A DNA stretch of 64,000 bases, taken from NCBI GenBank assembly GCA_024280835.1, contig JAJRPJ010000012.1, forward strand, positions 124,001 through 188,000. The letters are read 5' to 3'. The position numbers were made by a program, and so were the translations under genes. The notes beneath the pieces were generated by a model. The model saw only the letters and a program-made list of their open reading frames with translations, had not been told where the DNA came from and did no database searches. The stretch's first letter is position 1, and every line of letters starts with the position of its first letter. The stretch comes from Candidatus Zixiibacteriota bacterium (GTDB lineage Bacteria > Zixibacteria > MSB-5A5 > GN15 > JACZUZ01). Shown piece after piece: positions 32,899-53,241 of this stretch.

Positions 32899-32919
32899 AC
32901 TTAATGTTCCTATAATAAA

Positions 32920-35583
32920 CTATTTCTTCTCAGACAACGCCGCATCCCAGTTCTGAATCATCACCAGCGGCTCAACAGTATTTGACCCACTAGGTAGCTG
33001 GTTAACATAGAACTTTGTGCCATCAGAGTTCATGCTATAAACATTGCCAGGTCGTGAGCCAGATATCTTGAAAAGTTTCCGCACAGCTCCAGGCAGGAAA
33101 CTTGAACCTGAGTCATCCACTTCAGCAACATTTATCACATCGTTGTTGTCTAGGTAATACAAACGCTTGCCATCAGCGCTCCATCTGGGTCTATCACCGT
33201 CATTGATAGAAACCTGCCACTTGCCACTTAGTGCGGGAAATGAGGTAACATAAACCTCTGGATTTCCAGACTCTTCGGAAGTAAACGCCAACCATCGTCC
33301 ATCTGCAGAAAGAACTGCGTCACTATTATCGCTTGCCAGATCGAAAATACGCCTAGACTTCTCGATAGAATCCAATGGAATAATCCAAGCCACAGAGAGG
33401 TCAGAGTTCTTGACGGCGAACAGGTATTTCCCGTCTGCCGACCAACTCGAAAGGAACATATTCTCTTTTGATGCAAGTAACCGAGTTGCCTCGCCCATTC
33501 CACTTGAAGACTTCATGTAGACAATAGTTGAATCCCCAGTTTGAGTGACATAAGCAAGTGATTCACCATCAGGTGACCAGACAGGCGTGTAACTATTGAG
33601 GCTATCGAAGGTCATTCGCCGTTTAATACCGCGTATTATATCATGTATCCAAATGTCCGTCGCAGTGCTAGATTGATCAGAGATTTCACACGCAAGGTAT
33701 CGCTCATTAGGAGAAAGGAACATCGTATACATTGTTTCCCATTCACCTATTGAATCCAAAACCAAACCACTTGAATCAAAAACAGTAATCATAGAGCCTA
33801 GTTGAAGTTGACCAGTGCGGAGAATCATTTTCCCATCTGACGAAAGTGTGAACAGACTCCTAGAATAATTATCCACATATGACACATTTTCCGCTATTGG
33901 CTGTCCATCACCTATCAGCTCTAATTTGGCTGGGTCAAATGGATGCGCCATCAAGGTGTTCTCTCTGGCATAGACGATGTGTCCTCGCGCGAAGACAGCA
34001 TTTGATTTTGTGTAAATCAAGTGTTCTTGCTTACCTGTTGAAAGTGACCCGATTCTAATTGCATCCTTTTCGCCTCCAGAGCCAGAGCCCGTTCGCACAT
34101 AGTACAAATAGTGATCCCCGTCAGGTAAAAACCATGGCCAGCGATGTGTCACATCGTTAGTGGTTGAATCCAGCGTGGTTAATCGTTTCGCCTCTCCTCC
34201 AGCGCCAGCAACTTGAAACAGAGGTCCGCTTGGTTCGGGAGTGAAGATTGTGACATCATTCTGATTCCACGAACCCGTTCTCCCAGATTTTGCATCACAG
34301 AGCGTAAGAGCTGGTCCGCCAGTTGCTAGAATCTTCTTGAGTTTGCCTCTTATAAAAAAGGCAATGTAACGGCTATCTGGTGACCAAAACGGCATCCAAG
34401 AGTCGCCGGTGCCAGCCAGTTTGATTGCTGTAGGTGAATCAAGCTTTCTAACCCACATGAATTCTTTGCCGGCAATAGTGTCAGCGGCGTTAAAGGCAAC
34501 CATCTTACCATCAGGAGAAAGAGCTAGCGCCCCGCCAGCAGGTCCAGAAAATCTTGTCCCATCTGGCGAAAGTATATTTGTAGTAATTATTTCGCGAGGA
34601 ATCTCTTTTTGGTTAAATGCCAAATATCCAAAAACTCCAGTGGTAATCATCAAAACCGCCGCAACTATCCAAGGGATAAGTGCCGCCCCCCCAGACTTGA
34701 CCGAGCCAACTGTAGCGCCTGAACCACCATCACGAATCAATTCCAATGAGCGCTTCAAATCACCCGCGGACTGCCAACGTTGCTCTGGGTCTTTGCTAAG
34801 ACATTGCTTAATAACTTTCTCAAGCGCCAATGGCGTCTTAGTGGTAATTTCAGAAATGTCGCGAGGTTGTTCTTTCAGCACAGAAGCAATCAAACTTGCG
34901 CGACTCTTACCTTCAAATGCATTCTGCCCCGTTGCCATTTGATACAACGTAGCCCCAAAAGCAAAAATATCACTTCGTGCATCAGCCTCTTCGCCCTCAA
35001 GCTGCTCTGGAGCCATGTACTGCAAGGTCCCGATGATTGCGCCTTGAGTAGTCAGTGGAGTAGTGCGAGTCTCAGCGCTAGAGAGCGCGTCAAGAAACCC
35101 CGCCTGTGGTGTAAACTTCGCCAAACCAAAATCAAGAAGCTTTGCGCCCTCTTTGGTCAGCATCACATTGCCTGGTTTCAAATCACGATGCACTAACCCC
35201 TGCTTATGCGCTTTGTCCAGCGCATCAGCAATTTGGATGGCAACTGTGAGAAGTTCTTCAGAAGGAAGAGGCCCTTTGGCGAGCCGATCTGAGAGCGTCT
35301 CGCCTTCAATAAACTCCATCACCAAATAGTCAATGCCCTCGGCTTCACCAATATCAAAAAGTGTACAGATATTTGGATGATTCAACCCAGCTATGACTTT
35401 TGCCTCGCGCTCAAACCGCTCTTTTATATCAGCGCTGTTGGCAACTTTCGCGTGCAGGACTTTGATAGCCACTTCTCTATCGAGACGAGTGTCTGTGGCC
35501 TTGTATACTTCGCCCATACCGCCAGCCCCAGCGGAGCCGAGAATTTTGTAGGGTCCTAGTTGCTTGCCTGTTTCTAATGTCAT
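32920..35583 (-). CDS. Receptor Ser/Thr kinase with PD40 propeller (kinase 4)
   Basis: The 887 residues have the same architecture as kinase 3: kinase (about 10-285), transmembrane helix (IPWIVAAVLMITTGVFGYLAF, about 300-320) and PD40 propeller ending MIQNWDAALSEKK. The kinase half is nearly identical to that of kinase 7 (GEAEGIDYLVMEF, PSEELLTVAI in both), while the propeller is distinct. AAGGAAA lies four nt before the ATG. It begins 9 nt after the stop of kinase 5, which suggests one transcript for kinases 6 to 3. Confidence 0.93.
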   Translation of the reverse strand: MTLETGKQLGPYKILGSAGAGGMGEVYKATDTRLDREVAIKVLHAKVANSADIKERFEREAKVIAGLNHPNICTLFDIGEAEGIDYLVMEFIEGETLSDRLAKGPLPSEELLTVAIQIADALDKAHKQGLVHRDLKPGNVMLTKEGAKLLDFGLAKFTPQAGFLDALSSAETRTTPLTTQGAIIGTLQYMAPEQLEGEEADARSDIFAFGATLYQMATGQNAFEGKSRASLIASVLKEQPRDISEITTKTPLALEKVIKQCLSKDPEQRWQSAGDLKRSLELIRDGGSGATVGSVKSGGAALIPWIVAAVLMITTGVFGYLAFNQKEIPREIITTNILSPDGTRFSGPAGGALALSPDGKMVAFNAADTIAGKEFMWVRKLDSPTAIKLAGTGDSWMPFWSPDSRYIAFFIRGKLKKILATGGPALTLCDAKSGRTGSWNQNDVTIFTPEPSGPLFQVAGAGGEAKRLTTLDSTTNDVTHRWPWFLPDGDHYLYYVRTGSGSGGEKDAIRIGSLSTGKQEHLIYTKSNAVFARGHIVYARENTLMAHPFDPAKLELIGDGQPIAENVSYVDNYSRSLFTLSSDGKMILRTGQLQLGSMITVFDSSGLVLDSIGEWETMYTMFLSPNERYLACEISDQSSTATDIWIHDIIRGIKRRMTFDSLNSYTPVWSPDGESLAYVTQTGDSTIVYMKSSSGMGEATRLLASKENMFLSSWSADGKYLFAVKNSDLSVAWIIPLDSIEKSRRIFDLASDNSDAVLSADGRWLAFTSEESGNPEVYVTSFPALSGKWQVSINDGDRPRWSADGKRLYYLDNNDVINVAEVDDSGSSFLPGAVRKLFKISGSRPGNVYSMNSDGTKFYVNQLPSGSNTVEPLVMIQNWDAALSEKK

Positions 35584-35592
35584 GAAGTTTCC

Positions 35593-38259
35593 TTAGCGCC
35601 CAGAGTTTGACGCATTCCAATTTTGAATTAAGACCATCGAGGGAACGTAATTGTCACCCAATCTAGCGTTCACCAGAAAACGCTTACCGTCATTGAAGAC
35701 ATCGTAGGAGCTTCCTGTCCTCTCAGCGCGCAATCGAAATAGCTGTGTGGCCTTGCCAACCCTGAAAGACTTACCCGAGCCATCGACATCGACTGAAACG
35801 ACATTATCTCTACTATCAACATAGAACAACTTGCCGCCGTCGGCGCTCCAGCGTGGTTTCCCACCTCCATTCAGAGAGATTTGCCATTTCCCATCGGGAG
35901 AAGGAAAGTTTGTAACAAAAACCTCCAGTGAATTGGAATTGGCGCTGTAAGCCAGCCAACGCCCATCTGGTGAAAGAGCAGGGTCAAGTTCCCAATCCTC
36001 ACTATTGAGCAAAGCAACAGGATCTGAATCATCGTCAACTTTTTTGGCGTACACGTCACTCCCGGTAATTGGGCTGAGTCGTTCGTATATCAGGTATTTG
36101 CCGTCTTCGGACCAATCAACAGGAGTTATCGCTGCTGTGTCACTCAACAAGAGAGTTGCTTCCCCAGAACCTCCAATATCGCGCAAAAATATCCTAAAGA
36201 CACCCTTCGATGAGATGTAGGCAACTCTATCTCCAGTTGGCGACCACACTGGGCTATACTCTGACGTTTCCTCAAATGTCAAGCGCGTTCTTGTTCCTTG
36301 CTCTAGATGGTACATCCAGATGTCAGCATTCGGAGCCCCAGGTTCGGTCAGGCTGAAAACCACCTTCCTTCCATCGGGCGAAATCCGTGCAAAACGAGAT
36401 TGAGCCGCGCTTCCAATAGTATCGAGAGTTTTTCCACTACCATCGAGGATTCTTAGTTGAGTTTCACGAGTCAATAATCCTGCGCGGTAGAGGATCTTCC
36501 CACCTTCAATGGCGCTGAAGACGCCACGGCTCCAATCCGGCGCATAGGTGACATTTTCGGCTACCGAGAAAACGTCACCACTATTTTCAGTGGAAGAAAC
36601 ATCGAAAGGCTGTGCCATTAGAACATTGTCACGAACAAAAATTATGTGCCCATCACAGAATTCCGCATTGGAACGCGCATTGATAAGACGCTTCCTGTCT
36701 CCCCCTGAGAGTGAGGCCACACAAATCGCATCTTGCTCACCTCCGGCCTCTCCTTCTGTGCGCGCAAAATAGAGGAAGTGATCTCCATCAGGTAGGAATT
36801 TTACCCAGCGATGGGTGTAATCGCTAAATGCAGTATCAAGAGACAGGGCCACTTGAGGTTCGCCACCTCCAGCTCCAACGCGATGTATTGGTCCGTCAGA
36901 CTTAGGAGAAAAGAGGATAACATCGTCACTATTCCAACTACCGCCTCTGCTTTGCGGAGCGTCACACAATGTCAGAGCTGGCCCACCAGTTGCAAGAATT
37001 TTTCTTAGTTTCCCCCCCGAAAAGAAACCTATGCTCTTGCTGTCAGGTGACCAAAATGGGAAAGTGGCCCCTTCAGTCCCTCTCAATGGCTGCGCCTCAA
37101 GTGAATTCAGAGCTCTCACCCAAATCATGCTCTCATCTTCCCTGGCAGCGGTAGCGCTGGCCAAAAACGCCAATGCCAGTCCGTTTGGAGAGAGTACTGC
37201 GTCTCCACCGGCCCAAGAGACAAATTCCGCCCCTATCGGCTCAAGGAAACGACTGCGAATTTCTCCTGCGGGCGCGCCGCCGTTTGAACGCCAAAGTGTT
37301 GCAAAGACGATTGCGGCCACTGCGAGAGTTGCGACCAATACCCACGGAAGCGTACTAGGGCTGGCGCTCTTGACGGCCCTTGACTCTGTGGAGATTGAGC
37401 CACCTTCAGAAATGAGAGTCAAAGAGCGCTTCAAATCTCCAGCAGACTGCCAACGCTGGTCAGGGTCTTTGCTAAGACATTGCTTAATCACTTTCTCAAG
37501 AGCCAATGGCGTCTTAGTGGTAATCTCGGAAATGTCGCGAGGTTGTTCTTTCAGCACAGAAGCAATTAGACTCGCGCGGCTTTTGCCTTCAAACGCATTC
37601 TGACCAGTTGCCATCTGATATAGAGTCGCCCCAAATGCAAATATATCACTACGAGCATCGGCCTCTTCGCCCTCAAGTTGCTCGGGCGACATATACTGCA
37701 AAGTACCGATGATTGCGCCTTGAGTTGTCAGCGGAGTGGTGCGAGTCTCAGCGCTGGAGAGCGCATCAAGAAATCCCGCCTGTGGTGTAAACTTCGCTAA
37801 ACCAAAATCAAGTAGCTTGGCACCCTCTTTAGTGAGCATGACGTTGCCGGGCTTCAAGTCACGATGCACCAACCCTTGCTTGTGCGCTTTGTCGAGCGCA
37901 TCGGCAATTTGGATTGCAACTGTGAGAAGTTCTTCATTCGGCAATGGGCCTTTGGTGAGCCGATCAGAGAGCGTCTCCCCCTCAATATACTCCATCACCA
38001 AATAGTCGATCCCATCCTCTGAGCCGATATCAAACAGCGTACAGATATTAGGATGATTCAACCCAGCGATTACCTTGGCCTCACGCTCAAAGCGCTCTTT
38101 AATATCCGCGCTATTGGCAACTTTTGCATGTAGGACTTTGATAGCCACTTCTCTATCGAGCCGAGTGTCAATCGCCTTATAGACTTCACCCATACCGCCA
38201 GCGCCAGCGGGACTAATGATCTTGTAATGACCGAGTTGTTTACCTGTTTCTATACTCAT
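35593..38259 (-). CDS. Receptor Ser/Thr kinase with PD40 propeller (kinase 5)
   Basis: The 888-residue member has a complete kinase (AGAGGMGEVYKAIDT, HRDLKPGNVML, DFGLAKF), a transmembrane segment (STLPWVLVATLAVAAIVFATLW, about 303-324) and a propeller that is the most different of the five (RSRFLEPIGAEFVSWAGGDAVLSPNG at its start, LIQNWNASNSGR at the end). The insert of the kinase shares SEDGIDYLVMEYIEG with kinase 3. The start has no obvious Shine-Dalgarno site. The gap to kinase 6 is only 18 nt. Confidence 0.93.
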   Translation of the reverse strand: MSIETGKQLGHYKIISPAGAGGMGEVYKAIDTRLDREVAIKVLHAKVANSADIKERFEREAKVIAGLNHPNICTLFDIGSEDGIDYLVMEYIEGETLSDRLTKGPLPNEELLTVAIQIADALDKAHKQGLVHRDLKPGNVMLTKEGAKLLDFGLAKFTPQAGFLDALSSAETRTTPLTTQGAIIGTLQYMSPEQLEGEEADARSDIFAFGATLYQMATGQNAFEGKSRASLIASVLKEQPRDISEITTKTPLALEKVIKQCLSKDPDQRWQSAGDLKRSLTLISEGGSISTESRAVKSASPSTLPWVLVATLAVAAIVFATLWRSNGGAPAGEIRSRFLEPIGAEFVSWAGGDAVLSPNGLALAFLASATAAREDESMIWVRALNSLEAQPLRGTEGATFPFWSPDSKSIGFFSGGKLRKILATGGPALTLCDAPQSRGGSWNSDDVILFSPKSDGPIHRVGAGGGEPQVALSLDTAFSDYTHRWVKFLPDGDHFLYFARTEGEAGGEQDAICVASLSGGDRKRLINARSNAEFCDGHIIFVRDNVLMAQPFDVSSTENSGDVFSVAENVTYAPDWSRGVFSAIEGGKILYRAGLLTRETQLRILDGSGKTLDTIGSAAQSRFARISPDGRKVVFSLTEPGAPNADIWMYHLEQGTRTRLTFEETSEYSPVWSPTGDRVAYISSKGVFRIFLRDIGGSGEATLLLSDTAAITPVDWSEDGKYLIYERLSPITGSDVYAKKVDDDSDPVALLNSEDWELDPALSPDGRWLAYSANSNSLEVFVTNFPSPDGKWQISLNGGGKPRWSADGGKLFYVDSRDNVVSVDVDGSGKSFRVGKATQLFRLRAERTGSSYDVFNDGKRFLVNARLGDNYVPSMVLIQNWNASNSGR

Positions 38260-38277
38260 AGTATATTCGTAATCCTG

Positions 38278-40950
38278 TTACTTATTAATCTCAGCCTGCC
38301 AGTTTTGTATCAAAGTGATAGTAGTAGTAGGCTTTGTGCTTTGTAAGCGCGAGTTAACCAAAAAACGCGTTCCATCACCAGAGACTTCAAATATATCACT
38401 TGGACGTAGCGGGGTAATTCCAAAAAGCTTCTTTATTCTGCCAACTCTAAAACCAGCGCCACTACCGTCAACCTCGGCGACATTGATGGAATCCTGCTTA
38501 TCCACATAGAACAATTTCGCTCCATCAGCGCTCCAATGCGGGAATTCACCAGAATTATTCGACACTTGCCACTTCCCCCCAGAACCAGGGAATGGAGAAA
38601 CATATATTTCTGACTTACCAGATTCGTCAGATGCATAAGCTACCCATTTACCGTCGGGAGAAAATTCGGCGTCGCCTTCACCAAACTCTGAATTAAACAA
38701 TGGGTAAGCGCTTGTGCTATCCTTTAGTTCCAATACCCAAATATCATAGCTATTCTCCTCAACCCATAATAGAATGTATTGGCCATCACTCGACCAGTCC
38801 AAAGGTAATGTCAGAGCTTTATTCGAATAAACTGTCTCTCTTTCCGAGGCCCCACTTACAGGTTTAATACGGATGTCATAGCCACCAGGACGCTGTGAAG
38901 TGAATGCGACTTGTTCACCATCAGGTGACCAAATCGGGTTATAAGCATTGTCATTATCAAAAGTAAACCTGGTCATAATACCTCTCTCGGTATTATGAAT
39001 CCAAATACCCCATTTCGAACTCGACTGGTCAAGAATATCTACCAGGACTTGTTTCTCATCAGGAGACCAAGCTTGCGAGTACTGGCGAGCATTATCTCCA
39101 ATGCTGTCAATGATCTTGCCCGAAGTGTCGTAGATAACGAGCTGTGATCCGATTGAAATCGGCCCCTCGCGAAAAGCCAATTTACCATCAGGTGATGCGC
39201 TAAATACTCCTCGACTCCACTCTCCCAAATACGTAACTCCCTCAGCGATAGGAAATCCATCAGCGCTAAACTCCAATTCAGCAAGATCAAATGGACGAGC
39301 CATCAATGTGTTAGACCTCATATACAGAATGTGTCCTTGGGAATAAGCAACCGATGACTTTGTATGAAGCAGTCTCTTGATTTTGTCAGGTTCAGAGAGA
39401 GAACTAACGGCGATAACATCACTTTCACTGCCAACTCCGCCACGAGTGCGAATAAAAAAGATAAAGTGATCACCATCGGGAAGAAATTTCACCCAACGGT
39501 GGGTGTTGTCTTCCAGTGTGGAATCCAGAGCTGTGACGGGTGATGACTCACCTCCACTGGCAGAGACTCGATGAACGACATCCGTTGCAGTAGGAGTAAA
39601 AATAATCACATCCTCGGCATTCCAATCTCCCGGACGGCCATCAACCGCTTCGCAAATTGTTAACGCCGGACCACCACTGGCGAGTATCTTCTTTAGCTTT
39701 TTATCTGTCCCAGAAAAGAAAGCCACGTAGCGACTGTCATATGACCAAAACGGGAAAAAGGCATTCTTGGTACCCGGCAATTGCAAAGCCACGTCCGAGT
39801 TGAGCGCTCTAACCCAAAGCATTTCATCTCCAGAAATAGTATCGCGAGCCACATATGCAATCTTCAGCCCATCTGGAGACAGACTCAAAGACCCGCCGCC
39901 ATATGAGGTTAATTGATTGTCCTCTGGCAAATGTAAACGCGAAAAAACTTTATTGACTGGAACAGCGTTTGGAAAAAGCGTCATATACGCCAGAACAGCG
40001 CTAAGCGCCACAAACGCACCAGCGACAATCCAACCAGCCATCGAAGTCCGCTTGGCTTTCTTGGCTTCAACTCCAAAAAATCCAGCGACAGACCCGCCTT
40101 CGGCCATCCATTGCAAAGCCCGCTTGAGATCACCTGCAGATTGCCAGCGTTGATCGGGGTCTTTGGTCAAACACTGACTGACAACCTTATCAAGCATCAC
40201 AGGAGCCAATGACTGCGATGCCGAAATCGCCTCTGGTTGTGTTGTCAATACAGATGCAATCAGCGAGGCTTGTGACTCTCCAGAAAACGCCCGTTTACCA
40301 GTAGCCATTTCATAAAGTGTCGCGCCAAAGGCAAAAATATCACTACGAGCGTCTGCCTCTTTGCCCTCTAATTGCTCTGGGGCCATATAGTGCATTGTGC
40401 CAATAATCGTGCCGCGACTAGTCAGCGGAGTGGTCTGGGTTATGCCACTAAAGTCTGGATTAGAAGTTGGCCCGCCGGCAAGTTTCGCCAAACCAAAATC
40501 AAGAAGCTTTGCGCCCCCCTTAGTGAGCATCACATTGCCAGGTTTCAAATCACGATGCACCAACCCCTGCATATGCGCTTTGTCCAGCGCATCAGCAATT
40601 TGGATGGCAACAGCGAGAAGTTCTTCATTCGGCAAGGGACCTTTGGCAAGTCTATCAGAGAGTGTCTCACCCTCAATAAACTCCATCACCAAATAGTCGA
40701 TACCGTCGGCTTCGCCAATATCAAACAGAGTACAGATATTAGGGTGATTCAAGCCAGCAATTATCTTAGCCTCGCGCTCAAAACGTTCTTTGATATCCGC
40801 GCTATTGGCTACTTTAGCGTGCAGGACCTTGATTGCCACTTCCCTATCGAGCCGAGTGTCAATCGCCTTATAGACTTCACCCATACCTCCAGCCCCAGCC
40901 GAGCCGAGAATCTTGTAGGGTCCAAGTTGTTTGCCTGCTTCAAGTGTCAT
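38278..40950 (-). CDS. Receptor Ser/Thr kinase with PD40 propeller, chimeric kinase domain (kinase 6)
   Basis: The 890-residue member keeps the shared N-lobe to the DFG motif (LDFGLAK). From there the kinase C-lobe differs from the other four: activation loop LAGGPTSNPDFSGITQTTPL, GTMHYMAPEQ, ATGKRAFSGESQ, SVLTTQPEAIS, CLTKDPDQRW. Transmembrane helix at about 305-326 (AGWIVAGAFVALSAVLAYMTLF), then the propeller to LIQNWQAEINK. The abrupt change implies recombination or gene conversion. AGGGAAA sits six nt before the ATG. A 217-nt gap with a palindrome precedes it, so this is a likely promoter site for kinases 6 to 3. Confidence 0.93.
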   Translation of the reverse strand: MTLEAGKQLGPYKILGSAGAGGMGEVYKAIDTRLDREVAIKVLHAKVANSADIKERFEREAKIIAGLNHPNICTLFDIGEADGIDYLVMEFIEGETLSDRLAKGPLPNEELLAVAIQIADALDKAHMQGLVHRDLKPGNVMLTKGGAKLLDFGLAKLAGGPTSNPDFSGITQTTPLTSRGTIIGTMHYMAPEQLEGKEADARSDIFAFGATLYEMATGKRAFSGESQASLIASVLTTQPEAISASQSLAPVMLDKVVSQCLTKDPDQRWQSAGDLKRALQWMAEGGSVAGFFGVEAKKAKRTSMAGWIVAGAFVALSAVLAYMTLFPNAVPVNKVFSRLHLPEDNQLTSYGGGSLSLSPDGLKIAYVARDTISGDEMLWVRALNSDVALQLPGTKNAFFPFWSYDSRYVAFFSGTDKKLKKILASGGPALTICEAVDGRPGDWNAEDVIIFTPTATDVVHRVSASGGESSPVTALDSTLEDNTHRWVKFLPDGDHFIFFIRTRGGVGSESDVIAVSSLSEPDKIKRLLHTKSSVAYSQGHILYMRSNTLMARPFDLAELEFSADGFPIAEGVTYLGEWSRGVFSASPDGKLAFREGPISIGSQLVIYDTSGKIIDSIGDNARQYSQAWSPDEKQVLVDILDQSSSKWGIWIHNTERGIMTRFTFDNDNAYNPIWSPDGEQVAFTSQRPGGYDIRIKPVSGASERETVYSNKALTLPLDWSSDGQYILLWVEENSYDIWVLELKDSTSAYPLFNSEFGEGDAEFSPDGKWVAYASDESGKSEIYVSPFPGSGGKWQVSNNSGEFPHWSADGAKLFYVDKQDSINVAEVDGSGAGFRVGRIKKLFGITPLRPSDIFEVSGDGTRFLVNSRLQSTKPTTTITLIQNWQAEINK

Positions 40951-41167
40951 TTTCGTTTTCCCTAATAGACTAATTTTTGTCAGTCAGCGCCGCATCCCTG
41001 TGGGTGCATGATCTACGGGTTGTCATATTTTTCTCGACTTCTCTCTAGCCTAGCATCTGGAGAGGATTTGTCGGGTATTTCTGGCGCCAGAAGCGCCTTT
41101 GAGTCCAGAACTACAATGCAGATAATCGCTGCAACTCAATTCAATGTTCTACATTTTCGTCACTGCG
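40951..41167 (-). promoter_or_regulatory. Gap between kinases 7 and 6 with palindrome and hairpin motif copy C
   Basis: The longest gap inside the kinase cluster. It holds a 14-bp perfect palindrome TTCTGGCGCCAGAA (41079-41092) and, at 40995-41023, a motif related to copies A and B (CCCTGTGGG then GATCTACGGGTTGTC). A promoter for kinases 6 to 3 is inferred; no clear -10/-35 was identified. Confidence 0.4.
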
Positions 41168-43834
41168 TTATTCCGAAAATCCGACCTGCCAGTTACTTAT
41201 GAAACTGATTTGGGTTGTTGCATTGCCAGCGCCGGCTACCTGATTTACAAGAAAACGTAATGGTGAATCATGGACATCATGAACTGAACCGGGACGGAAG
41301 CCTCTGGTTTGAAACAGCTTGCTAACTTTGCCAGCTTTGAACACCGAACCAATGGCGCTGACATGGGCGACATTGATGAAGTCGTCATCATCAAGATAGT
41401 AGATTCTACTACCATCGGCGCTCCACCTAGGTTTGTCTCCGCCATCGATTGCAACCTGCCATTTGCCATTCAATTCAGGAAAGGGTGAGACATAGACCTC
41501 ATTCTGGCCAGTTTCATCAGATACATAAGCCATCCACTGACCATCGCGGGAAAGAACGGCCTCACTTTCATCAAACTGGGCTTCCAACAATGGATACGGT
41601 TGGATACTCGTATCGAGAGGAATCACCCAGGTGTCTGTCTGAACCTTGGAAGAGTTTTCCGCAAACAGCAATTTGCCATCGGCAGACCAACTCAAGAGAA
41701 ACAGACTATTCCCAGTGATTTCGGCCAGCAATTCCGGTTCGCCGACACCGCTTGTTGTCTTGACGAGAACATGAGTCATTGAATCGACTTGAGCAACGTA
41801 GGCAATTCTATCTCCAGTAGGTGACCATATGGGTGTGAATTCATTGGCGCTGTCAAACGTAAAACGCGTGCGGATACCACGCTGGATATTGTGTATCCAG
41901 ATATCGGTTCCGTCGGTATTTTCGCCTCGCACATCGGAGGCCACACTTTCGCCGTCCGGCGAGAATCTCGGCGTGTATTGTTGAATCTGTTCACCTACCG
42001 TATCCAGAATAGTTCCCGTGGAGTCCATCACGAGTAGATTGGAGCCATTAAATATCGCGCCTGAACGAAAGATGAGTTTCCCGTCGGGGGACGCATCAAA
42101 AATGCCGTGACTCCAGTCTCCAAGATAGGAAACCGCCTCTGCCACAGGCGCTCCATCACCGGTATGCTCCAATGCGTCCGTGTCGAACGGTTGAGCCATC
42201 AAGATATTGTTGCGCATATACAAGATATGCCCCTGCGAAAAAACTCCCTGAGACTTTGCATAGGTCAAATGCCTCGTTGTGCCATCAAGCAACGATGAAA
42301 CACGGATAGCATCTTTTTCACCTCCAGCTCCGCTTCTAGTGCGAGCAAAGTATAGGAAGTGGTCACCGTCAGGGAGAAATTGGGCCCAACGATGCGTAAT
42401 GTCACGTGTGGTCGAATCCAACGTGGTAACCTGCTTCGGCTCTCCACCTGCAGATGAAACACGAAATATTGTACCGACATAGCTTGGCGTAAAGATAATG
42501 ACGTTATCGTTATTCCAGCTTCCACCACGACCTTGCACTACATCACAAAGTGTCAGCGCTGGACCGCCTGTTGCCAGAATTTTCTTGAGTTTACCACTGG
42601 TAAAAAAGGCGACATATTTGCTATCTGGAGACCAGAAAGGGAAGTATGCGTCCTTTGTCCCGGGCAAAGCGATAGAAACAGATGAACTGAATGAACGCAC
42701 GAAAAGCAACATATCTCCACTAACCGTGTCCTTGGCTGGGTATGCGATTTTCAATCCGTCCGGCGAGATAGCCATTGAGCCACCACCAATGTCGGACAGC
42801 GTTGCGCCGTTCTCGGTCAGGATGGTTGAAGAAAGTTTCTCTGGTGGAGTTTGGAGCTTCATTAGGAGCGCTCCGGCAAGTCCGACACTGAGCAGAATGA
42901 AAACAGCCGCGACAATCCAAGCGGTTTTCGATGTGCCAACCACTTTGCCGCCTGAAAGCAAGCTAGAGCTCGAACCACCATCACGAATCAATTCCAATGA
43001 GCGTTTCAAATCCCCAGCCGACTGCCAACGCATCTCAGGATCTTTACTAAGACATTGCTTAATAACTTTTTCTAGGGCTAATGGTGTTTTTGAGGAAATC
43101 TCTGAGATGTCACGTGGTTGCTCTTTAAGAACCGAGGCAATCAAACTAGCCCGACTCTTCCCCTCGAAAGCGTTCTGTCCAGTAGCCATCTGATAAAGGG
43201 TAGCTCCAAATGCAAAAATGTCACTACGCGCATCTGCCTCTTCGCCTTCTAGTTGCTCTGGCGCCATGAATTGTAATGTGCCGATGATAGCGCCCTGCGT
43301 AGTCAGCGGAGTAGTGCGAGTCTCAGCGCTAGAGAGCGCATCAAGAAACCCCGCTTGTGGAGTAAACTTCGCCAAACCAAAATCAAGAAGCTTTGCGCCC
43401 TCTTTGGTCAGCATCACATTGCCGGGCTTCAAATCACGATGCACCAATCCCTGCTTATGCGCTTTGTCCAACGCATCGGCAATTTGGATTGCAACTGTGA
43501 GAAGTTCTTCGGAAGGAAGAGGCCCTTTGGCGAGCCGATCCGAGAGCGTCTCACCCTCAATAAACTCCATCACCAAATAGTCAATGCCCTCGGCTTCACC
43601 AATATCGAACAGAGTACAGATATTCGGATGATTAAGACCTGCAATTACCTTAGCCTCACGCTCAAAGCGCTCTTTGATATCCGCGCTATTGGCTACTTTA
43701 GCGTGCAGGACCTTGATTGCCACTTCTCTATCGAGCCGAGTGTCAGTGGCTTTGTATACTTCGCCCATACCACCAGCCCCAGCGGGGCCGAGAATCTTAT
43801 AGGGTCCGAGTTGTTTGCCTGCTTCCAGCGCCAT
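41168..43834 (-). CDS. Receptor Ser/Thr kinase with PD40 propeller (kinase 7)
   Basis: The 888-residue first gene of the cluster in transcription order has kinase residues of about 10-285 with AGAGGMGEVYKATD, VAIKVL, HRDLKPGNVML, DFGLAKF and MAPEQ. The transmembrane helix is at about 303-325 (TAWIVAAVFILLSVGLAGALLM). The propeller starts TENGATLSDIGGGSMAISPDG and ends ISNWQVGFSE, closest to kinase 3. The kinase half is closest to kinase 4. GGAGAG lies upstream of the ATG (start MALEAGKQLG). Gap of 217 nt to kinase 6. Confidence 0.93.
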   Translation of the reverse strand: MALEAGKQLGPYKILGPAGAGGMGEVYKATDTRLDREVAIKVLHAKVANSADIKERFEREAKVIAGLNHPNICTLFDIGEAEGIDYLVMEFIEGETLSDRLAKGPLPSEELLTVAIQIADALDKAHKQGLVHRDLKPGNVMLTKEGAKLLDFGLAKFTPQAGFLDALSSAETRTTPLTTQGAIIGTLQFMAPEQLEGEEADARSDIFAFGATLYQMATGQNAFEGKSRASLIASVLKEQPRDISEISSKTPLALEKVIKQCLSKDPEMRWQSAGDLKRSLELIRDGGSSSSLLSGGKVVGTSKTAWIVAAVFILLSVGLAGALLMKLQTPPEKLSSTILTENGATLSDIGGGSMAISPDGLKIAYPAKDTVSGDMLLFVRSFSSSVSIALPGTKDAYFPFWSPDSKYVAFFTSGKLKKILATGGPALTLCDVVQGRGGSWNNDNVIIFTPSYVGTIFRVSSAGGEPKQVTTLDSTTRDITHRWAQFLPDGDHFLYFARTRSGAGGEKDAIRVSSLLDGTTRHLTYAKSQGVFSQGHILYMRNNILMAQPFDTDALEHTGDGAPVAEAVSYLGDWSHGIFDASPDGKLIFRSGAIFNGSNLLVMDSTGTILDTVGEQIQQYTPRFSPDGESVASDVRGENTDGTDIWIHNIQRGIRTRFTFDSANEFTPIWSPTGDRIAYVAQVDSMTHVLVKTTSGVGEPELLAEITGNSLFLLSWSADGKLLFAENSSKVQTDTWVIPLDTSIQPYPLLEAQFDESEAVLSRDGQWMAYVSDETGQNEVYVSPFPELNGKWQVAIDGGDKPRWSADGSRIYYLDDDDFINVAHVSAIGSVFKAGKVSKLFQTRGFRPGSVHDVHDSPLRFLVNQVAGAGNATTQISFISNWQVGFSE

Positions 43835-47856: not shown

Positions 47857-49383
47857 ATGGCTGAGAAAATAAAACGTCCCAAAGCTCGCAATTACAAAGG
47901 TTTCAAAGACACTTTTGCCGAAGATATTATTCTTCGGAGAAAGATGATTGAAACTATTCGAGTAATCTGCGAACGCTATGGTTTCAGTCCGCTGGAAACT
48001 CCCGCAATCGAATATGTCGACTGCCTGGGCAAATTCCTGCCAGAAGAGCACACTCCCGAAGGCGGTATTTTCTCATTCAAGAACCCTGACCTCTCAGAAG
48101 CCACACGAGCTGACCATCCTGACTGGTGGCTAGGTTTGCGATATGACCTAACAGCCCCACTAGCGCGAGTAGTTGCCCAAAACCAAGACTTACCAAAACC
48201 ATTCCGACGCTACCAACTCGGACAGGTTTGGCGCTATGAAAAACCAGGCCCAGGGCGCTACCGCGAATTCTATCAATTTGATTTTGACACAGTCGGCGCA
48301 ACATCAATGATTGCCGATGCTGAGTCATGCGCGATGACCTGTGATATTCTTGAGGCGCTGGGATTTGTGCGAGGTGACTACCTAATTCAAGTCAATGACC
48401 GCAAAGCGCTCCAAGGCGCTCTCGAATGCGCAGGCCTCAGTGAAGTCGACATTACCGACGAAAGCTCTCAAGTCGGAGTCGCTCTGCGAGCCATTGACAA
48501 ACTCGACCGTATCGGCCGAGCAGGTGTCACCGAACTTCTCGGCAAAGGCCGCAAAGACGCCTCAGGGGATTTCACCGAAGGCGCAAATTTCAACACAAAG
48601 CAAATCGACGTCATCCTCGCCTACCTCGATGCGCGAAGCGATTCACGAACGGAAGTCTGTAATCGGCTTGAAGCGCTTGTCGCTGATTCAAAAATCGGCT
48701 GCGAAGGTGTCGAAGAACTACGCCAAATCGACGGTTTCCTAACTGACCTCGGTTATGGTTCAGACAGAGTGCGCTTTGAGCCGACAGTTGTGCGTGGCCT
48801 CGGTTATTACACTGGCCCTGTCTTTGAAGGCGTCATCACCAAAGAAATTGTCGATGAAAAAGGCAAAACCCGTAATTTCGGTTCAGTCTTTGGCGGTGGT
48901 CGCTATGACACACTCGTACAACGCTTCACTGGTCAAAAAACACCAGCTACAGGTGGCTCAGTCGGGGTAGATAGACTACTCGCCGCTATGCGACTCTTAC
49001 AAGCAGACACTGCCCTGCCGACCTGCACAACCGAAGTCCTAATCACCGTCATGGACAAATCGCGACTAACTGACTATTTACAGTTACTCCAAAAAGTCCG
49101 CGCCGCTGGAATCAACTCCGAAGTCTTTGTCGGCAGTGGCTCAATCGGCAAACAATTGCAATACGCTGACAGACGTGGTATTCCTTTGGTCATAATCGCT
49201 GGCAGTGACGAATTCGACAATGGCGAGTATCAAATCAAAGACCTAGAACTCGGCCGACGACTCGCCGCAGACATTTCAGACCGTGACGAATGGCTCAAAG
49301 GCCGCCCCTCACAGCAAACTGTCGCCGCCGATTCTCTAATTGAAAAACTGAACGAATTACTTGCCGATTACCGTAGCAAATAG
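47857..49383 (+). CDS. hisS: histidine--tRNA ligase
   Basis: The 508-residue class II synthetase charges tRNA-His. Seen are KGFKDTFAEDIILRR at the N-terminus, motif 2 FRRYQLGQVWRYEKPGPGRYREFYQFDFD, the histidine-binding RGLGYYTGPVFEG (usual bacterial form is RGLDYYTG), FGGGRYDTL (motif 3) and a C-terminal anticodon-binding domain (about 400-490). It is longer than the usual ~425, with extra sequence between motif 2 and the GLGYYTG segment (about 200-300). Cytosolic. The hutH gene follows 19 nt downstream in the same direction. Confidence 0.95.
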   Translation: MAEKIKRPKARNYKGFKDTFAEDIILRRKMIETIRVICERYGFSPLETPAIEYVDCLGKFLPEEHTPEGGIFSFKNPDLSEATRADHPDWWLGLRYDLTAPLARVVAQNQDLPKPFRRYQLGQVWRYEKPGPGRYREFYQFDFDTVGATSMIADAESCAMTCDILEALGFVRGDYLIQVNDRKALQGALECAGLSEVDITDESSQVGVALRAIDKLDRIGRAGVTELLGKGRKDASGDFTEGANFNTKQIDVILAYLDARSDSRTEVCNRLEALVADSKIGCEGVEELRQIDGFLTDLGYGSDRVRFEPTVVRGLGYYTGPVFEGVITKEIVDEKGKTRNFGSVFGGGRYDTLVQRFTGQKTPATGGSVGVDRLLAAMRLLQADTALPTCTTEVLITVMDKSRLTDYLQLLQKVRAAGINSEVFVGSGSIGKQLQYADRRGIPLVIIAGSDEFDNGEYQIKDLELGRRLAADISDRDEWLKGRPSQQTVAADSLIEKLNELLADYRSK

Positions 49384-49402: not shown

Positions 49403-51532
49403 ATGTCTGCTCAACGCCAAACAAATCCATTAGTAACAAACCCATTAGTTTTAGGTGACAAAGACCTAGCAATTAGTGACATCGTGGATGTCTCTAGAAA
49501 CTTCCGCCCTGTCGTTCTAGGTGACAATGCTAGAGTTCGTGTCGAACTCTCACGTTCTGTAGTTGAAGAGATTTTGATTCATGACACCAAGGTCTATGGC
49601 ATAACTACAGGCTTTGCCTCACTACGTGATCAGCGAATTGATGGCGCCGATGCAGGTCAACTTTCAATGAACCTCATCAAAAGCCACTCCACAGGAGTTG
49701 GTGAACCGTTTGCCGAAGATGTTGTCCGTGGCTCAATGCTCGTCCGCGCGCATACATTGGCGCGTGGATGCTCGGGAGTTCGTGTAGAGTTGATTCAAGT
49801 ATTGTTGGATATGCTTAATGCGCATGTCTATCCCTTCGTTCCTCAACAAGGCTCAGTCGGAAGCTCAGGAGACTTAGCGCCACTCTCACACTTGTTTTTG
49901 GTAGCAATTGGTGAACCCGATGCTTTGATTTATCGACGTGACAAACACATCGCTCCCGACAAATATGTTTCGTCTGCTCGCGAATCCGACTTTGTCCAAC
50001 TTAGCGAACTAAGCGCTGATGCGTTGCAATTCTCACCAATCATCTTACAAGCCAAGGAAGGACTAGGCGCCAACAATGGCGCAGTTGTCAGCGCAGTAGT
50101 GACTGCTTTGGCGGCCTACGACTCTCAGAATTTGCTGGCAGTTGAAGAATTGGTTTCAGCGCTAAGTTTCGAAGCCCTGCAAGCAGTCCCAGATTGCCTG
50201 CAGCCAGCCCTAGTAAACACTCGCCCGCACCAAGGACACTGCGACAGCGCTTCAAACATTCGCGCAGCTTTAACTGGCTCACAACTCGTCCCCAGCGTTC
50301 ATCCCGCCTCACTGAACATGGCGCATTACAATTGCGCAATGCTGAAGCTGTTCCGCCTCGCTGGCAATAAAACACAATTGTCACAATTACACCAAATCAT
50401 GGACAACACTCAAACCAGCCTTTGTGACAGCCACAACGACATTGATGCTTGCGCATCATTACTTGAACCAATCATGAACAAGTGGCGTGAAACGCTAGGT
50501 TGGTGTGAGAGTTCTAATTCTACCACTACCCTGCCTATTGCAACTATCGAAGCGCTAGCAAAAATATATTCCATACACATGCGTGCTGTACTCCGACCAC
50601 TTGGCGACCCAGACCTACAAGACAATTACTCTTTCCGCGCCACACCAACTGTCCTCGGCGCCGCACGACAAGCGCTAGAGCATACACTTGAGACTATCAC
50701 GACAGAGATCAACTCAGTAACCGACAATCCAATAATCTTGCTCGACGAGATTTTGGCTTCTTATCGCTCGGACGCTGAAAATGGCGACTTATACAATTCT
50801 CCCGACTTGTCGGATTTCAAAAAATGGCTTAAAAACAATTGGCAAACTACGATAGCTCAAGTCAAGTCAGCGGCTAACTTCCATGGCGAACCAATCGGAC
50901 TTGCCGCTGATTACTTGGCTATTGCCATGGCTGAAGCAGGCAATATCTCTGAGCGCCGCTTGGCAGTCTTGCTCGACAGTGACCATTCCAAAGGCCTGCC
51001 CTCATATCTAATTTGGCATGCGGGGCTAAATAGTGGTTTGATGATGACACAATACACAGCGGCTTCGATTGTCACCGAGAACAAGACACTAGCCACACCC
51101 GCCAGTGTTGATTCGATACCAACTGGTGAGTCATGCGAAGACCACAACAGCATGTCCACACTCGCGTCAAGGAAGCTGGCGCAGATTGTTAAGAATGTAA
51201 AGATTATCGTGGCGCTAGAGGCGCTAGCGGCCTATCAGGCGGTTCAGTTTCGTAAACCGATGCAACTCGGAGAGACTACAAGCAAGTTCGAAGGCTTTAT
51301 TTCAGAAGGAATTTCCAAAGTCGCACTAAAGCAAGGCGCCTTTGAGAACGTTGAAGATATGCAAGAGTTCCTAGCCAGTATCGGCTTTGCAAAATCGGCG
51401 AGAGATAGAGTTCAACCGTGTATCGTACGCGACATCTCAATGCGACCGTTGTTGCAGAAATTTATCAGTCTAATCAACTCTGGACCAGCTATTGCTCTGG
51501 CTAATAGCCATAAGACCGCGCACGATTCCTAA
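49403..51532 (+). CDS. hutH: histidine ammonia-lyase, enlarged, with SSG in place of the MIO ASG
   Basis: The predicted product has 709 residues against about 510 for usual HutH, which deaminates histidine to urocanate. Family motifs: Tyr65 (VYGITTG), LIKSHSTGVG with the HAL-type Ser-His at 94-95, GSVGSSGDLAPL with the MIO tripeptide as Ser154-Ser155-Gly156 instead of Ala-Ser-Gly, Tyr/Arg in DNYSFRATP, NPIILL, and PASVDSIPTGESCEDHNSM. About 100 extra residues lie at 290-390 and about 40 at 450-490. It starts 19 nt after hisS; the ATG at 49403 avoids overlap. The N-terminus carries a 5-codon duplication (TNPLV twice). No hutU or hutI is nearby. Confidence 0.85.
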   Translation: MSAQRQTNPLVTNPLVLGDKDLAISDIVDVSRNFRPVVLGDNARVRVELSRSVVEEILIHDTKVYGITTGFASLRDQRIDGADAGQLSMNLIKSHSTGVGEPFAEDVVRGSMLVRAHTLARGCSGVRVELIQVLLDMLNAHVYPFVPQQGSVGSSGDLAPLSHLFLVAIGEPDALIYRRDKHIAPDKYVSSARESDFVQLSELSADALQFSPIILQAKEGLGANNGAVVSAVVTALAAYDSQNLLAVEELVSALSFEALQAVPDCLQPALVNTRPHQGHCDSASNIRAALTGSQLVPSVHPASLNMAHYNCAMLKLFRLAGNKTQLSQLHQIMDNTQTSLCDSHNDIDACASLLEPIMNKWRETLGWCESSNSTTTLPIATIEALAKIYSIHMRAVLRPLGDPDLQDNYSFRATPTVLGAARQALEHTLETITTEINSVTDNPIILLDEILASYRSDAENGDLYNSPDLSDFKKWLKNNWQTTIAQVKSAANFHGEPIGLAADYLAIAMAEAGNISERRLAVLLDSDHSKGLPSYLIWHAGLNSGLMMTQYTAASIVTENKTLATPASVDSIPTGESCEDHNSMSTLASRKLAQIVKNVKIIVALEALAAYQAVQFRKPMQLGETTSKFEGFISEGISKVALKQGAFENVEDMQEFLASIGFAKSARDRVQPCIVRDISMRPLLQKFISLINSGPAIALANSHKTAHDS
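49421..49450 (+). repeat. 15-nt in-frame tandem duplication at the start of hutH
   Basis: ACAAATCCATTAGTA is followed by ACAAACCCATTAGTT (13 of 15 identical), coding for TNPLV twice near the N-terminus of HutH. Confidence 0.85.
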
Positions 51533-51537
51533 AGGCT

Positions 51538-52311
51538 TCACTCTTCCCGATGCACCTGCACACTCGACGCTTGTGCAGTTGGGAAAATCAACATCTCACT
51601 AATATTCACATGCGCTGGTCTCGATGCCGACCAAACAATCGCATCGGCGATGTCTTCAGCTTTCAAAGCAGTGATTCCTTGGTAAGGAGTTTTAGCTTTC
51701 TCCTCATCGCCTTTGAAACGCACCACACTAAACTCGGTTTCCACCAAACCAGGATCAATCGATGTCACCCGAATCGGAGTTTCATTGAGATCCATCTTCA
51801 GCCCACGCGAAAGCGCCCGAACCGCAAACTTTGTCGCGCAATAAACAGCGCCATTGGGATATGACTCACGTCCAGCGATTGAACCAAGATTTATAATATG
51901 TCCGCTGCCCCGCTTTACCATCCCTGGTACAATTGAATTTGTCACCGCTATCAAGGCCTTGACATTAACATCAATAACTTCATGCCAATCCTCAGAGTCC
52001 ATCGTGTAGACCTTCTGCAAACCACGCACGAGTCCAGCGTTGTTGATAAGGATTTCAACCTCAGACCATTCGGGAGGCAAATTCTTAAGCGTCTTCTCAA
52101 CCTCTTCAAACTCGCGCAGATTCATTGGCAGGACCAACGACTTGGTTTGGTGTTTGTCAATTAGCTCCTTCGCCAGCGCCTCAAGCCGTTCCTTTCGCCT
52201 AGCAACCAGTATGAGCTTGGCGCCCTCTTTTGCAAAAGCCCGCGCAGCGGCTTCGCCAATACCACCTGATGCCCCAGTGATAAGGGTGATTTTGTCTTTC
52301 ATAACGGTCAT
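51538..52311 (-). CDS. SDR-family NAD(P)-dependent oxidoreductase
   Basis: The 257-residue classical short-chain dehydrogenase has the cofactor motif TGASGGIGEAAA, with basic VARRKERLE favouring NADP. NNAG is present, and the catalytic Ser-Tyr-Lys triad appears as SIAG and YCATK. The closest known type is YdfG-like 3-hydroxy acid/serine dehydrogenases (LSRGLKMDLNETPIRVTSIDPGLVETEF). Substrate is unknown. It converges with hutH, the two stops being 5 nt apart, so no terminator separates them. The start at 52311 (Met of MTVMKDK) is chosen over the TTG at 52323; the ATG at 52302 is also possible. Confidence 0.88.
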   Translation of the reverse strand: MTVMKDKITLITGASGGIGEAAARAFAKEGAKLILVARRKERLEALAKELIDKHQTKSLVLPMNLREFEEVEKTLKNLPPEWSEVEILINNAGLVRGLQKVYTMDSEDWHEVIDVNVKALIAVTNSIVPGMVKRGSGHIINLGSIAGRESYPNGAVYCATKFAVRALSRGLKMDLNETPIRVTSIDPGLVETEFSVVRFKGDEEKAKTPYQGITALKAEDIADAIVWSASRPAHVNISEMLIFPTAQASSVQVHREE

Positions 52312-52438
52312 TTGTTTTTCCAATCTCCCATAGTCTTTCTTCGTGTCACGAACAAAATAGCTGGACAGTTTACAAAAGACAAGCTGGAGCGCTCACTCAC
52401 CCAATTCCATTTTTTCACAATTTGCAACTGAAACAAGA

Positions 52439-52506: not shown

Positions 52507-53241
52507 TTAGATATTGAGACCTTTCTTGCGGCGGTATGCGCGAGCGGCGCCAAGGAGTCCCATTCCGAAAAGAGCCAATGTACCTGGCTCTGGAACTGGT
52601 GAAGACTCAAGATCCATCAAGAAATCAGAAGAATAGTAATGTGTGTCCTGACCACCATAGAATCCAGTTGGTGAATTGTGCTCATAATTGACCCATCCAG
52701 AGGCGCCGAAATTACTGTTCTTGCCATTAGCGCCATTGCCTACTTGAAACGGCTTTGAGAAATCAGTTGGGAAAGTCCATAGATTTGCATAGTCACCGTT
52801 TGGATTAGCAACATTTCTCATTTCGACACCTGCATTCGGATCGATAACATAGTAGTCATAGGCCGCATTCGAACCAGCATACGGAACAAAACTCACATCC
52901 AGAAGCCAGTCCGAGGCATATGAACCAGGGCCACCACTATTATTCCACTCCTGAAGCGCCATACTGCCATATAAACGAGCGCTCCCATCATCATAAACAT
53001 CAAATCGAACATCTACAAAATCCCATGTGACTTCGCTACGAGTGTTATCGTCATAGAACCCGTCAAGACGCATTCCATAGTACTCATTCGAATTGGCAGA
53101 AAGCGCTCCCTTGATACTCTTAGCTTTGTATGAGTTTACCAAAGTTAGCGCCTCGACCTTTGAACCGCTTGCAAAGATTGAAGCGGAAAAGGCAATTGCC
53201 AGAATGGCAAAGCAATAATTAGTGAGTTTTGTACTCTTCAT
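52507..53241 (-). CDS. PEP-CTERM sorting-domain protein
   Basis: The 244-residue exported protein has a signal peptide (KLTNYCFAILAIAFSASIFASGS). A central domain of unknown function (about 30-210), rich in Tyr, Asn and Gly, follows. The tail is a classic PEP-CTERM signal: VPEPG, a hydrophobic helix (LALFGMGLLGAARA) and a basic end (YRRKKG). Exosortase (EpsH/XrtA family) removes such tails and the protein joins an extracellular matrix with exopolysaccharide. Exosortase itself is not in the window; the sugar transferase at 14820 fits such a genome. It has a candidate sigma-54 promoter and a clear terminator, so it is a single-gene unit. Confidence 0.92.
   Translation of the reverse strand: MKSTKLTNYCFAILAIAFSASIFASGSKVEALTLVNSYKAKSIKGALSANSNEYYGMRLDGFYDDNTRSEVTWDFVDVRFDVYDDGSARLYGSMALQEWNNSGGPGSYASDWLLDVSFVPYAGSNAAYDYYVIDPNAGVEMRNVANPNGDYANLWTFPTDFSKPFQVGNGANGKNSNFGASGWVNYEHNSPTGFYGGQDTHYYSSDFLMDLESSPVPEPGTLALFGMGLLGAARAYRRKKGLNI

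Follow-up and report, generated by a model that had tools for sequence, protein, structure and literature searches.

The locus examined here raises the question of whether a MIO lyase that differs from the histidine ammonia-lyases (HAL, HutH) in both its length and its cofactor triad can still serve as the histidase of its organism. The gene lies in a window of 64,000 nucleotides (the whole stretch of DNA analyzed; positions 124,001 to 188,000 of contig JAJRPJ010000012.1, assembly GCA_024280835.1) from Candidatus Zixiibacteriota bacterium. An earlier note, made from the letters of the window alone, described the product as an enlarged HAL-type MIO enzyme with Ser-Ser-Gly (SSG) instead of Ala-Ser-Gly (ASG), and this description is borne out by the open frame, the PF00221 match, and the catalytic residues. 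As argued below, the 709-residue protein probably serves its organism as a functional histidine ammonia-lyase (HutH function), in a lineage-specific form elaborated by insertions. The features of the locus are listed in Table 1.

Table 1 Features of the long lyase locus (positions are those of the window).
Feature	Position	Strand	Basis or remark
Long HAL-type MIO lyase (P0001), 709 aa	49403..51532	+	Translation; PF00221 and NF006871 matches; ortholog L035:8001-10136
Tyr65 (P. putida HAL Tyr53)	49595..49597	+	phmmer alignment to 1gkm
Ser94-His95 (His95 is HAL His83)	49682..49687	+	Translation, phmmer, family alignment
MIO triad Ser154-Ser155-Gly156 (GSVG-SSG-DLAPLSH)	49862..49870	+	Translation; identical in ortholog
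Asn225 (HAL Asn195)	50075..50077	+	phmmer, family alignment
Insert 1, residues 313-404, 92 aa	50339..50614	+	Between SHxxCA and QDxYS motifs; alignments
Gln406, Tyr409, Arg412 (HAL Q277, Y280, R283)	50618..50638	+	phmmer, family alignment
Insert 2, residues 449-486, 38 aa	50747..50860	+	Just before Phe493; alignments
Phe493 (HAL F329)	50879..50881	+	phmmer alignment
Glu579 (HAL E414)	51137..51139	+	phmmer, family alignment
C-terminal tail, residues 641-709	51323..51529	+	Alignment
hisS, histidyl-tRNA synthetase	47857..49383	+	TIGR00442, 354 bits, above cut-off; 19 bp upstream of lyase
SDR-family oxidoreductase	51538..52323	-	Convergent neighbor, conserved in sister genome; profile matches

The long form is conserved in a sister genome

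The reading frame also offers an alternative TTG start at 49361, which would add 14 residues and overlap hisS; we prefer the ATG at 49403 because the first start of the ortholog lies 13 bp past its hisS. This ortholog, encoded by a metagenome-assembled genome of the same genus (G001), has 711 residues, is 74-75% identical, and shows the same triad and insert positions, with hisS preceding the gene and an SDR gene following it. A scan of 84,980 species genomes with two exact peptide patterns, by which distant relatives would be missed, matched JAJRPM010000010.1 (Candidatus Zixiibacteriota bacterium isolate Dive100_bin1.56), which carries ortholog L035. The content of this contig is that of the G001 contig, so L004 and L035 are a single piece of DNA and count as one independent ortholog, not two.

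Since no convincing resemblance to the inserts was seen in Pfam, the PDB, or plasmids, one might suspect an assembly or frame artefact in which foreign sequence was fused into an ordinary HAL. The sister genome refutes this: the open frame and the insert positions are repeated there, inserts 1 and 2 are 54% and 53% identical between the two genomes, respectively, and their pS is well above pN. Because the long form, the SSG triad, and the gene order all recur in a genome of the same genus, chance and assembly error are excluded.

Family assignment and catalytic residues

In profile searches, the protein matched PF00221 over two stretches with 477.2 bits (gathering threshold 27.3) and is thus a member of this family. 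It scored below the cut-offs of the curated HAL models NF006871 (477 bits versus 524) and TIGR01225 (454 bits versus 539.15), as did the ortholog of G001. These two were still the highest-scoring curated models, the aminomutase/TAL models TIGR03832, TIGR04475, and NF053541 giving 279, 291, and 248 bits against cut-offs of 501, 800, and 700, respectively. Among solved structures compared with phmmer, HALs matched best (253 and 245 bits), aminomutases reached at most 193 bits, and ergothionase 146. Plant and yeast phenylalanine ammonia-lyases (PALs, ~700 residues) are of similar total length and belong to the same superfamily but match with 136 bits at most, and their extra mass consists of an N-terminal part and a C-terminal shielding domain, not of a 92-residue insert before the QD motif.

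All eight residues examined at the catalytic positions of P. putida HAL (Tyr, His, Asn, Gln, Tyr, Arg, Phe, and Glu) are kept, as read from the phmmer alignment to 1gkm and the family alignment. One of them, His95, belongs to the HAL-type Ser-His that the earlier note placed near residue 95 and that is indeed present as Ser94-His95, presumably a specificity pair; His95 and Glu579 are, we assume, the pair that binds the imidazole. For a Geobacillus HAL, excerpts of a mutagenesis study report that, of the equivalent residues, Y52, H82, N194, and E411 are essential and that Q274, R280, and F325 contribute (PMC11432326). An alignment of 17 HutH-type proteins has 78 conserved columns, of which the long lyase retains 65; the other 13 are altered, several of them near catalytic residues: T227A after Asn225, Q416T near Arg412, G491A before Phe493, and V582N after Glu579. 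By every catalytic residue tested the protein appears HutH-like, whereas the formal equivalog call fails.

Compared with known HutH enzymes (EC 4.3.1.3; P. putida 1GKM, the probable HAL 7TQR, and Geobacillus GkHAL), the protein has in common the PF00221 domain, the Ser-Gly of the MIO triad, the catalytic residues, the Ser-His pair, and the Glu; its genome encodes the hut pathway genes, as expected for HutH. It differs from them in having 709 rather than ~510 residues, an SSG triad, two inserts, and the 13 changed columns, and in falling below the curated HAL cut-offs. With the HutH-type HALs of other Zixibacteriota (G006, G012, G015, G018, G024, G042, and G002) it shares the variable first triad residue and the Ser-His pair; an EDH motif is found in the six complete ones. 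These relatives have no inserts, are 32-41% identical over the N-terminal match, and form a separate clade.

The MIO triad

Histidase is a textbook enzyme, and excerpts of the literature call its Ala-Ser-Gly triad strictly conserved (PMC3903478), a rule from which the Ser-Ser-Gly found here departs. In a survey of 60 genomes of the order, including that of the window, a HAL match was obtained in 52 and the triad was read in 48, the full-length matches of G036 and G052 being omitted along with short matches in G054 and G057 that do not span the triad. HutH-type triads were SSG in 2 genomes, TSG in 5, CSG in 1, and ASG in 1, and the second HAL type carried ACG in 36 and ASG in 3. A wide occurrence of SSG, which the earlier note named as counting against its idea if seen in validated HAL enzymes, was not observed: of the 48 genomes read, the two that have it both belong to this genus. 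ASG was read in each of 13 additional MIO lyases, of which 12 come from plasmids and one is encoded on a viral contig. The contig IMGVR_UViG_3300036790_000609, which encodes an ordinary ASG HAL (L082), is classed as viral and may be host DNA; scans of viral contigs for more HALs yielded few loci (none in two scans, one in a third, and three in a fourth, with one contig common to the last two).

Because HutH-type relatives start the triad with Thr, Cys, or Ala, the Ala-Ser-Gly rule seems too strict. The MIO group forms when the amide nitrogen of the glycine attacks the carbonyl of the first residue and the middle serine loses water, so the side chain of the first residue is not expected to participate in the cyclization. 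In the window protein, the backbone around Ser154-Ser155-Gly156 would cyclize to give the MIO electrophile, with Ser155 providing the methylidene carbon and the first serine bringing only the exchange of a methyl for a CH2OH group outside the reaction. SSG is weak evidence of new chemistry, given this expectation and the triad variation among the relatives, and the suggestion of the earlier note that the changed first residue could alter cyclization speed or specificity is not supported by SSG taken alone. The open-licence literature yielded nothing on Ser-Ser-Gly, Thr-Ser-Gly, or Ala-Cys-Gly ammonia-lyases, and triad variants and insertions are not mentioned in excerpts of a review on how MIO enzymes evolved (PMC9002059).

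The second HAL type with a natural Ala-Cys-Gly (GSVGACGDLAPM; e.g., L011:1507-3030) mostly shows NFQG and EDFVSM motifs; the L011 protein passes NF006871 (544 versus 524 bits) and misses TIGR01225 (519 versus 539 bits). A Cys-derived MIO histidase is plausible in this type, because a urocanase match was obtained in 33 of the 36 genomes carrying it and a second HAL locus was matched in none of them except G047 and G055. Perhaps this type is a better lead than SSG. An engineered S143C variant of P. putida HAL is said to be active; no paper on it turned up in the open-licence literature.

The inserts

The estimate of about 200 extra residues in the earlier note is correct, complete HutH-type relatives of the order having 503-521 residues (G002 is cut by a contig end). 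We located the extra length by alignment with the ordinary HAL L082 and 28 other MIO lyases. The slot of insert 1 contains 92 residues, compared to 3-5 in 26 of the 28 other lyases and 20 in two; that of insert 2 contains 38 residues, compared to 3 in all 28, a net gain of ~35. From residue 640 the C-terminal stretch comprises 70 residues, compared to 28-50 in the full-length others aligned, and a smaller expansion at approximately residues 175-210 is visible in the alignments.

Between the two orthologs, identity is 52-54% in the inserts and the tail, 79-98% in three core stretches, and 33% over the first 18 residues. For the core (residues 19-312, 405-448, and 487-640) pN is 0.02-0.13 and pS 0.68-0.84, and for the inserts pN is 0.28-0.32 and pS 0.74-0.85 (0.74-0.87 with the tail included), all from one ortholog pair with synonymous sites near saturation. 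These values point to a strongly constrained core and to inserts and a tail that are constrained too, but less so.

Insert 1 gave no convincing relative in the PDB (best E 0.93), only matches below the cut-off in Pfam, and nothing at E 0.1 in plasmids; with short flanks, it matched only the two genomes of this genus among 132 genomes of the phylum. Within these limited searches, the inserts seem to be absent from other lineages. An origin of insert 1 by internal duplication was rejected (best blastp E 0.28). The full-length AlphaFold2 prediction from three sequences was unusable (pLDDT 34), whereas residues 297-420 alone, from two sequences, were predicted to be mostly helical with a mean pLDDT of 53.5, a hint only that insert 1 is probably helical. 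The positions of the inserts just before Gln406 and Phe493 suggest a lid; the inserts probably form such a lid, cap the surface of the tetramer, or stabilize the protein. Judged by these comparisons, they are a rarer feature than the SSG triad, and the focus of the earlier note on the latter is weakened.

Phylogenetic position

In a tree of 30 proteins (quick method with SH-aLRT support only; nine second-type HALs included, a Pseudoalteromonas row not included), the window protein and its ortholog form a clade with support of 100, and the branch leading to it is 2.09 changes per column long. The pair is placed within the HutH group and outside the TSG/CSG/ASG clade of the order; its exact position is unsure owing to long-branch effects. 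The gene may have diverged rapidly within the lineage or may have been acquired from another source. In this genus the enzyme would have diverged strongly and gained the probably helical 92-residue insert and the insert of ~35 residues.

The histidine degradation pathway

A search of the genome (3.3 Mb) for PF00221 turned up the long lyase gene and no other; as the genome is 96% complete, a second HAL may have been missed. All downstream hut steps looked for are encoded, on contigs other than that of the window (C14): urocanase (hutU, C12:353620) and hutI (C12:355173, 469 bits) are adjacent to each other, and FTCD lies at C10:60819 in a 513-residue reading frame. The 709-residue protein appears to be the only candidate found for the conversion of histidine to urocanate and, if it is the histidase, no step between histidine and glutamate is missing, since hutU, hutI, and FTCD are present. 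Tyr65, His95, Asn225, Gln406, Tyr409, Arg412, Phe493, and Glu579 would then bind and deaminate L-histidine, the likely substrate, and the urocanate formed would pass to HutU, HutI, and FTCD, encoded elsewhere in the genome.

The observation in the earlier note that hutU and hutI are not adjacent to the lyase is true within the window, but does not indicate a different pathway. Of the 60 genomes of the order, 53 gave a urocanase match. In 5 relatives (G005, G007, G029, G044, and G055) urocanase shares a contig with HAL, always at least 39 kb away; because the two genes lie so far apart in relatives, a HAL distant from hutUI is usual in this order. No hutU or hutI was recognized around the HAL genes of ten relatives, as judged from the first residues of each reading frame rather than by profile. 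On several named plasmids, hutH is beside hutI or hutU.

A former histidase that has shifted to a new substrate, be it a derivative of histidine or a different aromatic amino acid, and whose inserts reshape the pocket, would fit the 13 altered columns, some beside catalytic residues, the very long branch, and the location of the inserts directly before the Gln406 and Phe493 motifs. We nevertheless consider such a change of substrate unlikely: His95 and Glu579 are retained, and with hutU, hutI, and FTCD present and no other PF00221 gene found, the loss of histidase activity would strand the pathway.

Genomic neighborhood

The hisS gene upstream, the only histidyl-tRNA synthetase gene found in the genome (single PF13393 match), is co-directional with the lyase gene and separated from it by 19 bp, as compared to 13 bp in G001. 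This pairing in two genomes, together with the weaker family scores, might be taken to indicate that the MIO-fold protein has little or no catalytic activity and serves in regulation, e.g., tied to histidine status via hisS. This possibility is highly improbable given that neither the Ser-Gly of the triad nor any of the catalytic residues checked has been lost, and that the genome would be left without a known histidase. Moreover, the adjacency was not seen in 10 other genomes of the order in which both genes were located, although in 7 of these they lie on different contigs of fragmented assemblies, where adjacency is possible; the distances in the others are ~8.5 kb (G009), ~103 kb (G012), and ~391 kb (G005). 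The HisS protein is at most 51% identical to alphaproteobacterial plasmid and chromid copies (the best plasmid-record match being from Ruegeria, 51%) and ~41-44% identical to those of order relatives, and no donor carrying both genes turned up for a possible transfer of hisS and HAL as a cassette.

Three tRNA-His genes of the phylum (L099, L100, and L101, from G012, G007, and G001, respectively) all carry T or C instead of G at position -1 and an A discriminator, according to an acceptor stem reading; alphaproteobacterial tRNA-His likewise lacks G at -1 and has an A discriminator. The pattern search gave no match for the tRNA-His gene of the window genome itself. Elsewhere in the window, positions 30226-43834 contain a local expansion of five tandem, near-paralogous kinase-like genes (887-890 residues) with a WD40-like/TolB-like C-terminal half, as read from the reading frames and not by profile, and positions 52507-53241 encode a small secreted protein with a tail judged by eye to be PEP-CTERM-like (VPEPGTLALFGMGLLGAARAYRRKK).

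Implications

The protein, probably a working histidase, shows that the MIO-lyase fold can accommodate large additions in the stretches that run up to its active site. The natural first residues Ser, Thr, and Cys, together with the Cys in the methylidene position of the second HAL type, provide variants for testing MIO formation. A further, unlikely possibility is that inserts 1 and 2 together make up a lineage-specific lid domain, which would control access to the MIO active site or detect a ligand, and that co-transcription with hisS balances the charging and degradation of histidine. We know of no precedent for a histidase regulated in this way; if this possibility were true, the enzyme would be a histidase carrying built-in regulation.
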